Shown here piece after piece: positions 50,653-55,534 of a DNA stretch of 64,000 nucleotides. The notes beneath the pieces were generated by a model. It saw only the letters and a program-made list of their open reading frames with translations, ran no database searches and had not been told where the DNA came from. Position 1 is the first letter of the stretch. Each line of letters begins with the position of its first letter. The stretch comes from Pedobacter psychroterrae (lineage in GTDB: Bacteria; Bacteroidota; Bacteroidia; Sphingobacteriales; Sphingobacteriaceae): the NCBI RefSeq assembly GCF_004331695.1, contig NZ_SJSL01000001.1, forward strand, positions 248,001 through 312,000, in the 5' to 3' direction. The position numbers were made by a program, and so were the translations under genes.

Positions 50653-51372
50653 ATGCATTTTGTAAACCATCTATTCCAAAGCTTGTCCCTGCTCATTAGG
50701 GACTTGGTCAGTCTGCTATTTCCAAATTTATGCTGTGCCTGCGGATTGCAGCTATATCGCGGAGAAGCTCATCTCTGTACAGGATGCATAAGCAATCTGC
50801 CTTATACAGATCACCACACTGACCCGCAGAATAAAGCTGCGAAAAAACTATGGGGAAGGATAAGGTTTAATGCCACAATGGCCATGCTGCATTTCAAAAA
50901 GGGAGGCCGCGTCCAAAATATCATCCATCATTTAAAATACGGAAACAATAGCGGTATCGGAATAAAACTGGGCATGATGATGGCAGAGAGACTACAAACT
51001 GCCGCAGCTTTTGAGCACATAGACCTGATCATACCTGTGCCCCTACATAAAAAAAGGGAACGAATACGGGGTTACAACCAAAGTAAAAGCATAGCGGAGG
51101 GGATAGCGGCTGTACTTGGAGTGCCCGTCATTCATACCGCCCTCATCAGAAAGATGGATACGGAAAGCCAGACCAATAAAAACCGGTTTGGAAGATACGA
51201 GAACATGAAAGATGTGTTTAAAATTATGGACGAATGTGCATTGCGCGGAAAACATGTGCTGCTGGTAGACGATGTGATTACGACAGGCGCTACCATCGAA
51301 TCCTGTGCCAATGAACTAAATAAATGTGGTATTAAAAAGCTAAGTATTGCAGCCGCAGCTTTGGCAGACTAA
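50653..51372 (+). CDS. ComF family phosphoribosyltransferase-like protein
   Basis: 239 residues. N-terminal zinc ribbon (CCACGLQLYRGEAHLCTGC, four or five cysteines), then a PRTase fold with IIPVPLHKKRERIRGYNQS and the PRPP-binding loop VLLVDDVITTGATIESC. ComF proteins are linked to DNA uptake in naturally competent bacteria but are widely conserved outside competence. It overlaps the beginning of the downstream frame, whose true start lies after its stop. Confidence 0.92.
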   Translation: MHFVNHLFQSLSLLIRDLVSLLFPNLCCACGLQLYRGEAHLCTGCISNLPYTDHHTDPQNKAAKKLWGRIRFNATMAMLHFKKGGRVQNIIHHLKYGNNSGIGIKLGMMMAERLQTAAAFEHIDLIIPVPLHKKRERIRGYNQSKSIAEGIAAVLGVPVIHTALIRKMDTESQTNKNRFGRYENMKDVFKIMDECALRGKHVLLVDDVITTGATIESCANELNKCGIKKLSIAAAALAD

Positions 51373-51394
51373 GGAGTTTTGTGTAGTTTTATTT

Positions 51395-52771
51395 ATGCGT
51401 TTGATTGTGTCATTGATGGTATTGCTTTCTATTGGCTTAATGGCTTGCCGTAAAGCTAATGATATCACCACAGACAAGAACGTAAAGCTCTTTTTTTCAA
51501 CAGACACCGTGTTTTTTGATACGGTATTTACTTCTGTAGGCTCGGCCAATAAACGGATCAAGATCTATAATAAGGAACAAAAGGCAGTGAAGGTGAGCCA
51601 TATTAAACTGAGCGGGGAATCAGGTTCGTTTTTTAGCCTGATTATTAATGGAACTCCCGCCAACCAGATAAGTGACCTTCAGATAGATGGAAATGATTCT
51701 ATCAGCATTTATGTAAAAGTCAACATTAATCCGGACGATCAGTACCAGCCCTTTATTGTACAGGATTCTATATTATTTAATACGAACGGCAACAAGCAGT
51801 CTGTGCCTTTGGTAGCTTATGGGCAGAATGCAATTTTCATAGACAACCAGGTGATTTCCACAAGCAGTACCTGGAACAGCACTTTGCCTTATATCATCTC
51901 CAGATCTGTAATGGTAGCGGCAGGCGTTACACTAAACATCAAGCCGGGAACAAGGGTTTTATTTCATGGAAACGCTGCGATGAATATTATGGGCAGCTTA
52001 AAGGCCGAAGGGACAAAAGACCGCCCGGTAATATTTGCGAGTGACCGGCTGGAACCTTATTACAGTGAAGAGCCCGGCCAGTGGAAGGGGATCCGTTTTT
52101 TTAGCAGCAGTAACAGTTCGAGTATTGGTAATACATTGATTAAAAATGCAATTGTGGGTATTACAGTAGACTCTTTGTCTTTAAACAGTTCCGTTAAGCT
52201 GACCCTTAGCAATAGCATTGTGAAGAACATGCAGGCAGCTGGACTGGCAGGGTTTGGAACAGAGATCAATGCCTTTAATAACTTATTTTACAACTGCGGA
52301 CAATATCTTTTTTACGCGGTCGGGGGCGGCAGGTATAACCTGAAGCAGAACACATTTGCAGGATATAATTACCATCTTCCACGCAGCACACCTGCAGTGT
52401 ATTTTTCTGACATTTCGGTCGGGTATTTAGCTGGTGATTTGAGCGTGGAACTGGTCAACAATATTATCTGGGGCAGTTTGGCCGAGGAAATATTGATTGA
52501 TAAAAAGACCGGTTTTAATGTGGAAACCAATGTAAGAAACAACATCCTGAAAACTTTGTTGCAGCATTTTGATGATCAGCTAAACCAATTGAACATCAAT
52601 CCGCTGTTTACGAATACAAATGTCTGGAATTTTGAGCTTCAGGAAGGCAGCCCGGCCTTTAATAAAGGTGCAGACCTCAGTATGGACCCTCATGTAAACC
52701 TGTTATCAAGAGACCTGAACAATGTACCAAGGATCTTCCCCGCTACGCTGGGTTGTTATGAAAAAAAATAA
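51395..52771 (+). CDS. secreted lipoprotein with right-handed beta-helix repeats
   Basis: About 458 residues from ATG 51395, giving a lipoprotein signal (MRLIVSLMVLLSIGLMACRK, lipobox LMAC). Residues about 170-400 show a right-handed parallel beta-helix pattern with Asn ladders (VTLNIKPGTRVLFHGNAAMN, KLTLSNSIVKNMQAAGL, LVNNIIWGSLAEEILI). The end DMNNVPR-type segment (LLSRDLNNVPRIFPATLGCYE) recalls choice-of-anchor Q proteins. It is probably surface-exposed and may bind or cleave a polysaccharide, but no catalytic motif is seen. comF is 22 bp upstream. Confidence 0.85.
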   Translation: MRLIVSLMVLLSIGLMACRKANDITTDKNVKLFFSTDTVFFDTVFTSVGSANKRIKIYNKEQKAVKVSHIKLSGESGSFFSLIINGTPANQISDLQIDGNDSISIYVKVNINPDDQYQPFIVQDSILFNTNGNKQSVPLVAYGQNAIFIDNQVISTSSTWNSTLPYIISRSVMVAAGVTLNIKPGTRVLFHGNAAMNIMGSLKAEGTKDRPVIFASDRLEPYYSEEPGQWKGIRFFSSSNSSSIGNTLIKNAIVGITVDSLSLNSSVKLTLSNSIVKNMQAAGLAGFGTEINAFNNLFYNCGQYLFYAVGGGRYNLKQNTFAGYNYHLPRSTPAVYFSDISVGYLAGDLSVELVNNIIWGSLAEEILIDKKTGFNVETNVRNNILKTLLQHFDDQLNQLNINPLFTNTNVWNFELQEGSPAFNKGADLSMDPHVNLLSRDLNNVPRIFPATLGCYEKK

Positions 52772-52818
52772 AAAACTAAATTCTTAAAACAATTTTACAT
52801 CCTTACCGTTTATATGAT

Positions 52819-52882
52819 GAGAGCGTTAATTTAGATGGTAAGGGCCGGCATTTCTTCATTGAGGTACCGGCCCTTTACTTTT
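52819..52882 (+). ncRNA. GAGAGCG hairpin element 1 (candidate small RNA or terminator)
   Basis: GAGAGCGTTAATTTA (52819-52833), then a stem AAGGGCCGG/CCGGCCCTT (52840-52848 with 52867-52875) with 18-nt loop and TACTTTT after. Same plan as element 2 at 53025. It lies 47 bp after the beta-helix gene, so it may simply terminate that gene, but the 15-mer shared by both copies is unexplained by termination. A weak -7-like TACCGTTT (52804-52811) precedes it. Confidence 0.45.
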
Positions 52883-52989
52883 AATTACGCTATTCCTAAA
52901 AGCTCTTAGTTTTTTTATTGGTTTTGAGCAATGCTAAAATGTATTAGTAAAATAAACTCAATAAAAACACACAAATAATTCAGTAATAT

Positions 52990-53020
52990 TTTGCTAAATA
53001 AAAAAAAATGTGTTCCTTTG
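52990..53020 (+). promoter_or_regulatory. promoter-like sequence before GAGAGCG element 2
   Basis: TTTG (52990-52993), a 19-bp spacer, then TTCCTTTG (53013-53020), one mismatch to TAnnTTTG. Transcription would start at or next to the G of GAGAGCG (53025). Confidence 0.5.
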
Positions 53021-53024
53021 TCTT

Positions 53025-53086
53025 GAGAGCGTTAATTTAAGGGTCGATACTTCCATGCCAATGGGATATCGGCCCTTTATTTTTTA
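53025..53086 (+). ncRNA. GAGAGCG hairpin element 2 (candidate small RNA or terminator)
   Basis: GAGAGCGTTAATTTA (53025-53039), then an 11-bp stem AAGGGTCGATA/TATCGGCCCTT (53039-53049 with 53067-53077, one G-U pair) with an inner CCAT/ATGG stem and a TATTTTTTA tract. The whole would be a transcript of about 60 nt preceded by the promoter-like sequence at 52990-53020. It lies between two convergent genes. Confidence 0.5.
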
Positions 53087-53134: not shown

Positions 53135-55534
53135 TTAAACAGAAAAATAGACCATCAGCATAGCTTTTATTTCATCCGGCTGAAACGGTTTGAGTATATG
53201 CCCATTTATTCCTGAAGCTTCATATCTTTCATGTTCATCCTCCAGGGAGGAGGCTGTGAGCGCAATAATGGGAACAGATTTGAAATGACTGCCTGGAAGA
53301 TCCCTGATAATGGCAGCAGTCTCAAAACCATCAATTCCTGGCATTTTAATATCCATAAAGATCAGGTCATAGGTATTTTTCATTACCTTTTCAATTGCCT
53401 GACGGCCATCAGCAGCAAAATCCAGATCAAAACCCCATTTACTTAGTATTCTTTTGGCTATTAAAATATTGATTTCATTATCATCTACTACCAATAGCTT
53501 TTTATTAATAAATGCAGGCAATTTATCTCGCAGTCTGATGGTTTTATCCTTATCTGAGACTTTGTTAAAGCAGATAGAGAAGGAAAATGCGGTGCCTTTA
53601 CCTTCTTTACTTTTTACCTGTATATCAGAATTGTATAGCTTCAATAATTTTTTGGTGATAGCAAGGCCTAAGCCTGTTCCGCCATACTTTCTGGAGATAT
53701 CCGGCTTTGCCTGCGTAAAGGCTTCGAAGATGTAAGATTGCTTATCTTCCGGAATGCCTATACCAGTATCCTTTATTTCAAAATTTATCAGTACATCCTT
53801 TTCTGTTTCGGCTATTTGTTTTGCTACGAGCTTTATTTTACCATAATCTGTAAACTTGATGGCGTTTCCCAACAGGTTCATCAGGATCTGGTATAACCTG
53901 GTTTTATCACCCAGTACATTTGCAGGAATAGCATCATCAATATCGAGTATCATATTGTTACTCTTTTTAATGGCATTGATCTGCAGTGAATTTATGATAT
54001 CAGTGGTCAGCGTGTGTATGCTGAAGGGAATAGACTCGAGCTGCAGATTGCCGGTTTCGATCTTGGTGAAGTCGAGGATATCATTGATGATGTTCAGCAG
54101 GTTTTCGCCAGAGAACTTAAGGATATTCAGATCCTCTATCTGGGAAACCTTAGGATCGTTTTCGAGCAGCAGATGGGTCATGCCAATAACGGCATTTAAT
54201 GGTGTCCTGATCTCGTGGCTCATTACGGACAGAAACATTTCCTTGGCTTCGCTCAGCTGCAGGGCCTGTTCCTTGGCATCCAGCATTTCCTGTTCGGCCT
54301 TTTTCTTGTCTGTAATATCAATAATGATCTCTACTTCGATGTCTATATTACCTTCATTATTCAATACAACTGTATTGTAAATAGAGAGCCAGATTGGCTG
54401 ATTGTTTTTTCTATAGCATAAGAGGTCGACGGTGAAGGATTGATTCTGCTTGGTCAGCAGACGGGCTTTATTGAGCAGTTCAATATCGGTTTGAGGTCCG
54501 GCAATCAGATCACCCAGTCTTTTGCCTTTCAGATCATCGAGGGTATAACCAGTGATATTCTCAAATGCATCGTTTACCCAGGTTACATGGTTATTGGCGT
54601 CATTGATCACTACTGCATTGTTGACCTTACTGGCAACGAACGACAGTTTCATGAGCTCATTTTCAACACGTTTACCCTCTGTAATATCCCTTCCGTAGGC
54701 ATACCAGCGATCTGACTTGGTGACCATGCTCCAGCTGATCCAGCGTAAGGCACCCAATTTAGCGGTCATTCTGAAGTCGACCTTAAACTCTTTTTGTCCA
54801 TGCCTCAGCCCCTCTTCAATAAGCCCCCTGCTACTGCTGATATCTTCCTCACTGCAAAATGTCCAGATACTTGTCCCTATGGCTTCATCAACAGAATATT
54901 CAAGGATTGTGGTAACTGCGTCATTAATGAATAAGATTTTCCCGTTGCGGTCGAGGATACAATGAATTTCGGGAGAAACAGTAGAAAGGTTTAACAGATC
55001 TTCAAAACGCTGGGTATTGACTTTAAGTTCAGCGGTTTTCTTCCTTAAGGTCATGTGGGTAATGATCTCACGCGCTAGAATCTGCAGACCTGCTTCTTGT
55101 TCTCCTGTCAGCTTATTTGGCTTTGTGTCGAACACACTGATTGCTCCCAGCTTATATCCTTGTGCGTCGAGTAAGGGTGCCCCGGCATAAAAGCGGGCAT
55201 AAGGAGGCCCGGTCACACCCGGATGTCCTTTGAAGCGTTCATCTGCTAAAGTATCTGGGACCTCCAATATTCCCTCAGACCGAATGGTATGATCGCAAAA
55301 GGAATTGCCTCTCGGCATGTCAGGAGGGTCCAAACCCACCACGGATTTATAAAAGAGGCGCTCTTCATCAATCAATGTAATTAAGGCGTTGGGGACATTG
55401 CATACCAGACTTGCCAGCCTGGTAATATTATCGAACTCATGCTCTGCCGGAGTATCGAGAATATTGTATTGGCGCAACGCCTTTACGCGGTCATGTTCAT
55501 TGATTGAGGAAGAATTACTGCGCGCTCCTGACAT
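53135..55534 (-). CDS. hybrid sensor histidine kinase (GAF-PAS-PAS-HisKA-HATPase-REC)
   Basis: 799 residues, without a membrane helix, so cytoplasmic. A GAF domain (about 25-160; FDNITRLASLVCNVPNALITL in part) precedes two PAS domains (about 180-290 and 295-412), then HisKA with H440 in LSVMSHEIRTPLN, the ATPase (N box LMNLLGNAIKFTDYG, G1 DTGIGIPED, G2 GTGLGLAITKKLL) and a C-terminal receiver with D728 in LIFMDIKMPG. It could pass phosphate to its own receiver or on to a separate phosphotransfer protein. No regulator gene flanks it. The input signal is unknown. Confidence 0.93.
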   Translation of the reverse strand: MSGARSNSSSINEHDRVKALRQYNILDTPAEHEFDNITRLASLVCNVPNALITLIDEERLFYKSVVGLDPPDMPRGNSFCDHTIRSEGILEVPDTLADERFKGHPGVTGPPYARFYAGAPLLDAQGYKLGAISVFDTKPNKLTGEQEAGLQILAREIITHMTLRKKTAELKVNTQRFEDLLNLSTVSPEIHCILDRNGKILFINDAVTTILEYSVDEAIGTSIWTFCSEEDISSSRGLIEEGLRHGQKEFKVDFRMTAKLGALRWISWSMVTKSDRWYAYGRDITEGKRVENELMKLSFVASKVNNAVVINDANNHVTWVNDAFENITGYTLDDLKGKRLGDLIAGPQTDIELLNKARLLTKQNQSFTVDLLCYRKNNQPIWLSIYNTVVLNNEGNIDIEVEIIIDITDKKKAEQEMLDAKEQALQLSEAKEMFLSVMSHEIRTPLNAVIGMTHLLLENDPKVSQIEDLNILKFSGENLLNIINDILDFTKIETGNLQLESIPFSIHTLTTDIINSLQINAIKKSNNMILDIDDAIPANVLGDKTRLYQILMNLLGNAIKFTDYGKIKLVAKQIAETEKDVLINFEIKDTGIGIPEDKQSYIFEAFTQAKPDISRKYGGTGLGLAITKKLLKLYNSDIQVKSKEGKGTAFSFSICFNKVSDKDKTIRLRDKLPAFINKKLLVVDDNEINILIAKRILSKWGFDLDFAADGRQAIEKVMKNTYDLIFMDIKMPGIDGFETAAIIRDLPGSHFKSVPIIALTASSLEDEHERYEASGINGHILKPFQPDEIKAMLMVYFSV

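Follow-up and report, generated by a model that had tools for sequence, protein, structure and literature searches.

Two short elements that lie in tandem between convergent genes of Pedobacter psychroterrae raise the question of whether they merely terminate the transcription of their neighbors or are genes in their own right. The window analyzed, to which coordinates refer unless another locus is named, is a stretch of 64,000 nt (contig NZ_SJSL01000001.1, positions 248,001–312,000). An exact search placed the 15-mer GAGAGCGTTAATTTA at 52819–52833 and at 53025–53039, both on the + strand and 206 bp apart from start to start, in agreement with the identical leader described in an earlier, sequence-only reading of this DNA; the identity common to both elements reaches 16 nt once the preceding T is counted. 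The flanking genes encode a beta-helix protein (51347–52771, +), whose Pfam match is slightly under the cut-off, and a hybrid histidine kinase (53135–55534, −). Sequence comparisons make it likely that the elements are independently transcribed small RNA (sRNA) genes of a multicopy family, with the leader serving as a seed for pairing with mRNAs.

The 15-mer is present in five exact copies in the 5.1-Mb genome of P. psychroterrae and the reversed pattern in none, and its occurrence is therefore far beyond chance. The sequence-only reading had named absence of the 15-mer elsewhere as the observation that would speak against it; the 15-mer was found in all 60 Pedobacter genomes sampled, with 1–15 copies in each and essentially none of the reversed-pattern control. 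Within the Sphingobacteriaceae it occurs in 10 of 25 genera, mostly as a single copy. An extended 18-mer was nearly restricted to Pedobacter among the matches listed for named records, and appeared in seven of 395 genomes sampled across the class, each of them a member of the Sphingobacteriaceae and none belonging to any other family of the class. In the P. psychroterrae genome, a covariance model recovered these five copies at full length. The first 15 nt of the leader are fixed by the search itself; their invariance is independently supported because only one site with 1–3 leader mismatches in this genome (C8:859865) has a hairpin nearby. A genome of another genus (L310:1001–1446) was noticed to hold two further copies, almost identical to each other, in which the leader varies (GAGAGCGATAATTGAT / GAGAGCGATAAATTGAT). 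Matches of the second covariance model (R2) in other families of the phylum were judged to be unrelated terminators or weak look-alikes. Separately, in several genomes of another family of the phylum (loci L284–L288 and L304), GAGACATTCGT...ATCGAT precedes a CCGGGAATC hairpin with its T-tract; this different but conserved arrangement is possibly a separate RNA family.

The proposed search of relatives for the 15-mer with an adjoining hairpin thus returned both parts: a terminator hairpin with its T-tract directly follows the leader in 188 of 190 distinct chromosomal copies, against 6.25% of random windows, and the predicted RNAs are 53–70 nt long. Many loci were retrieved with the 18-mer, which fixes a GAT spacer by construction; in the subset retrieved with the 15-mer only, the terminator was present at 62 of 64 loci and GAT in 54 of those 62. 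Stem sequences vary with compensatory changes, and the leader stays constant and single-stranded: 10 of 13 pairs have changed on both sides (covariation score 0.706, versus at most 0.194 for slid controls). The covariance model R2 was built on 16 in-register sequences with a structure named by the author, towards which its pair counts lean. An earlier model (R1) was free of pairs, as stems of differing length had been misaligned by MAFFT. Leader positions 1–13 have an unpaired probability of about 0.9 over the 188 RNAs. The earlier statement that the stems differ holds for the family at large and applies only in part to the pair in the window, whose 3′ arms share 81% identity across 26 nt.

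Element 1 consists of the leader GAGAGCGTTAATTTAGAT (52819–52836, +), identified by the exact 15-mer and its genus-wide conservation and predicted to form the 5′ end of the RNA as its single-stranded module, and of the terminator hairpin GGTAAGGGCCGG...CCGGCCCTTTAC with its T-tract (52837–52882, +; fold −26.7 kcal/mol, z −4.8). Element 2 comprises the leader, again an exact 15-mer (53025–53039, +), and the hairpin AAGGGTCGATA...TATCGGCCCTT with its T-tract (53039–53086, +; −23.3 kcal/mol, z −4.9); the z scores compare folding energy with dinucleotide shuffles. The folds are followed by TTTACTTTT in element 1 and by TTTATTTTTT in element 2. An upstream attenuator, suggested by CCTTACC/GGTAAGG complementarity at element 1, was rejected because other element-1 orthologs lack the complementary pair and the downstream gene is on the opposite strand.

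Both elements are preceded by promoter-like sequences. That of element 1 (52786–52813, +), overlooked in the sequence-only reading, consists of AAAACAAT at 52786–52793 and CGTTTAT at 52807–52813, and fits the extracytoplasmic function (ECF)-type pattern of the family. Element 2 has a sigma-A-type Bacteroidota promoter-like region (52991–53020, +) with TTG near −33 and TTCCTTTG at 53013–53020; the box announced earlier is thus present, with a gap to the leader of 4 nt instead of 5 nt, and the same type precedes the element-2 orthologs in L038, L107 and L116. A rule-based sorting assigned 136 of 188 copies to the ECF-like class (AACAATA-like box near −32, CGTTTAT near −13), 26 to a TAnnTTTG class, the type found at element 2, and 26 to neither; in the ECF-like class the rule partly fixes the −10 letters, but it sets neither the A/C-rich box around −32 nor the −1 pyrimidine. 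A pyrimidine occupies −1 in 180 of the 188 copies. As a fixed pattern, ACAATA-N-CGTYTAT was not above control in a genome-wide count. The ECF-like or sigma-A-like boxes stand at a fixed distance suited to a start at GAGAG, which is consistent with the RNA of about 60 nt beginning with GAGAGCG that had been predicted for element 2.

In one subclass a 5′ hairpin (AAGGGGTGAGAGCCTTAT) stands ahead of the leader, and this and a second subclass share a 7-4-7 direct repeat upstream (e.g., CTTCATC-AAAT-CTTAATC), whose score was matched by 0 of 50 shuffles per sequence. The repeat, which we take to resemble a Pho box, is located about 75 nt before the leader in L063, L092, L094, L101, L158, L167, L190 and L199, and about 39 nt before it in L090, L093 and L148. 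A phage-type integrase gene (L188:1133–2344) adjoins one chromosomal copy of the 5′-hairpin class.

The promoter-like boxes bear on one alternative, that the elements are mere terminators of the convergent flanking genes and the 15-mer a terminator-associated sequence. The strong hairpins and T-tracts suit it, as does the convergent setting, seen here and, where genes could be called on both flanks, at 75 copies; yet terminators need no invariant 15-nt leader, many copies are outside convergent gene pairs, promoter-like boxes lie immediately upstream, and here two elements follow each other on the same strand. We regard this explanation as very improbable.

Element 1 and its orthologs occupy the same locus across Pedobacter, from rlmN-comF(-beta-helix) to (histidine kinase-)glyA, where the hairpin type of element 1 is kept, and in several species it is followed in tandem by element 2. 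In genera outside Pedobacter that have one or few copies, a neighbor known from the window adjoins the sRNA at 22 of 24 loci examined (L065–L088). A single copy in another genus is nearly always found at this rlmN-comF/glyA locus, so that element 1 probably represents the original copy, later expanded in Pedobacter. This synteny across genera also argues against scattered insertions, and hence against the 15-mer being a motif of the DNA itself, such as a protein binding site or the end of a mobile element. Multiple copies, the integrase gene beside one of them and the occurrence of others on viral contigs would all be compatible with such a motif, but it would not explain the fixed orientation and distance to the downstream intrinsic terminator, nor the compensatory stem changes, and we give it hardly any credence.

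As an sRNA gene, each element would be transcribed from the first G of GAGAGCG and stop at its intrinsic terminator, yielding an RNA of about 60 nt with its first 14 or so bases single-stranded. With a common leader under differing hairpins and promoters, different signals, for which ECF sigma factors, the housekeeping sigma factor and possibly a Pho-like regulator are candidates, would feed one output. The leader would be a seed pairing with mRNAs, as in FopS of Bacteroides thetaiotaomicron, with repression as the outcome; we infer transcription, the exact RNA ends and this repression, and base pairing in trans is, by analogy, the best inference. The genome of P. psychroterrae encodes three RRM_1 proteins and Hfq was not found in it, as expected for a setting of the RbpB type.

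Several observations weigh against this reading. Over 925 start regions, complementary runs of at least 8 numbered 23 versus 11.2 ± 7.1, a level that 6 of 60 shuffles also reached, in a sample that covers part of the genes, is biased to neighbors of the sRNAs and has start codons assigned by a simple rule. For 30 of the 56 SusC-like genes of the genome, the mean duplex energy was −7.16 versus −7.85 for shuffled leaders, a test blunted by taking the first ATG of the frame as start codon. A wobble-tolerant antisense pattern gave 51 matches in the genome, the sRNAs themselves included, versus 40 for the control, and the few perfect antisense matches other than sRNAs had an unconvincing start-site context. 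Lastly, in some copies the leader lies between hairpins or in a loop and not at the RNA 5′ end. Of the trans-acting sRNA family with 5′ leader and terminator proposed at the outset, the family is thus supported by its distribution, downstream terminators, covarying stem, unpaired leader and promoter-like boxes, and the action in trans is a prediction to which the target tests, within their samples, lent no support.

The RNAs could instead be real with the leader as a binding site for a protein, e.g., one of the RRM proteins, the RNAs acting as decoys or sponges. The lack of target enrichment in the tests run and the variable placement of the leader would fit this, as would near-invariance over 15–18 nt across paralogs and genera, which goes beyond the needs of a multi-target seed. 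However, the leader sequence has no known protein partner, and RbpB of Bacteroides binds FopS sRNAs that nonetheless pair with mRNAs (PMC11697453). We thus hold the protein-site explanation to be unlikely, though worth keeping in mind, and retain seed pairing as the working interpretation.

Among 62 leader sites on viral contigs from IMG/VR, 36 are followed by a terminator-like hairpin, 27 of these with the GAT spacer, and at least 27 viral contigs carry the module of leader, GAT and hairpin; the hairpin site on L239, counted in the 36, is weak and probably due to chance. Three of the contigs encode proteins with matches to major head, head morphogenesis and tail families, and some of the contigs may represent integrated or bacterial DNA. 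On viral contig L237 (2802–2890) the leader starts at 2876, the base directly after a tRNA-Met (2802–2875), which fits an RNA 5′ end at the leader start; 3′ maturation of the tRNA could then release the sRNA. On viral contigs L221, L254, L242, L243 and L251, the leader is situated within a GC hairpin, as its loop sequence, or is flanked by two hairpins that lack a T-tract. A blastn search of phage records with one viral copy identified only an 18-nt match, judged to be chance. We suggest tentatively, and with more doubt than confidence, that phages of Sphingobacteriaceae carry the host sRNA seed in copies of their own, which phage promoters would express or which would be released from tRNA or hairpin-flanked transcripts, and thereby tap or sponge a host network run from several differently controlled chromosomal copies.

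A search of Rfam 15, in which the FopS model may or may not be included, returned no match for the window or for 28 leader-bearing loci. This search had been proposed with Flavo-1 in mind, and neither Flavo-1 (RF01705) nor Pedo-repair (RF01715), candidate RNAs from Pedobacter or Bacteroidetes (PMC2864571), was matched. Literature searches yielded no mention of the 15-mer or of Pedobacter sRNAs with ECF sigma factors. We conclude from the sequences that the Pedobacter family consists of putative independently transcribed sRNAs of 53–70 nt outside Rfam matches. Beyond Bacteroides, knowledge of how sRNAs regulate genes in Bacteroidota is very scarce, and an invariant leader under several promoter types, together with phage-borne copies, offers a defined and testable starting point: every member should be detectable with a single probe, and the syntenic, putatively ancestral copy is open to deletion.

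The enterobacterial sRNAs MicA and RybB are Sigma-E dependent and Hfq dependent; they are not known to share sequence with the Pedobacter family, and drive by an ECF sigma factor is a functional analogy only. Rfp18 of Flavobacterium psychrophilum is likewise a conserved sRNA of a Bacteroidota genus, but its predicted pairing is in the third stem-loop and not in a 5′ leader (PMC9723704). GibS of B. thetaiotaomicron does have a 5′ single-stranded seed that pairs near start codons, but is about 145 nt long and has additional hairpins as well as a second seed (PMC7366714). Architecturally closest is FopS (PMC11697453), with a 5′ seed, a terminator and, in each genome, several paralogs that have a 5′ sequence in common, the likeness being one of architecture; FopS has also been reported in a Caudovirales phage. 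Whereas FopS has been reported in the Bacteroidaceae, has canonical sigma-ABfr promoters and represses susC translation (PMC11697453), the Pedobacter-type family is found in Sphingobacteriaceae, has mostly ECF-type promoter-like boxes and gave no SusC signal in 30 start regions. It would demonstrate that multicopy sRNAs of the FopS kind emerged, or persisted, in a second family of the Bacteroidota.
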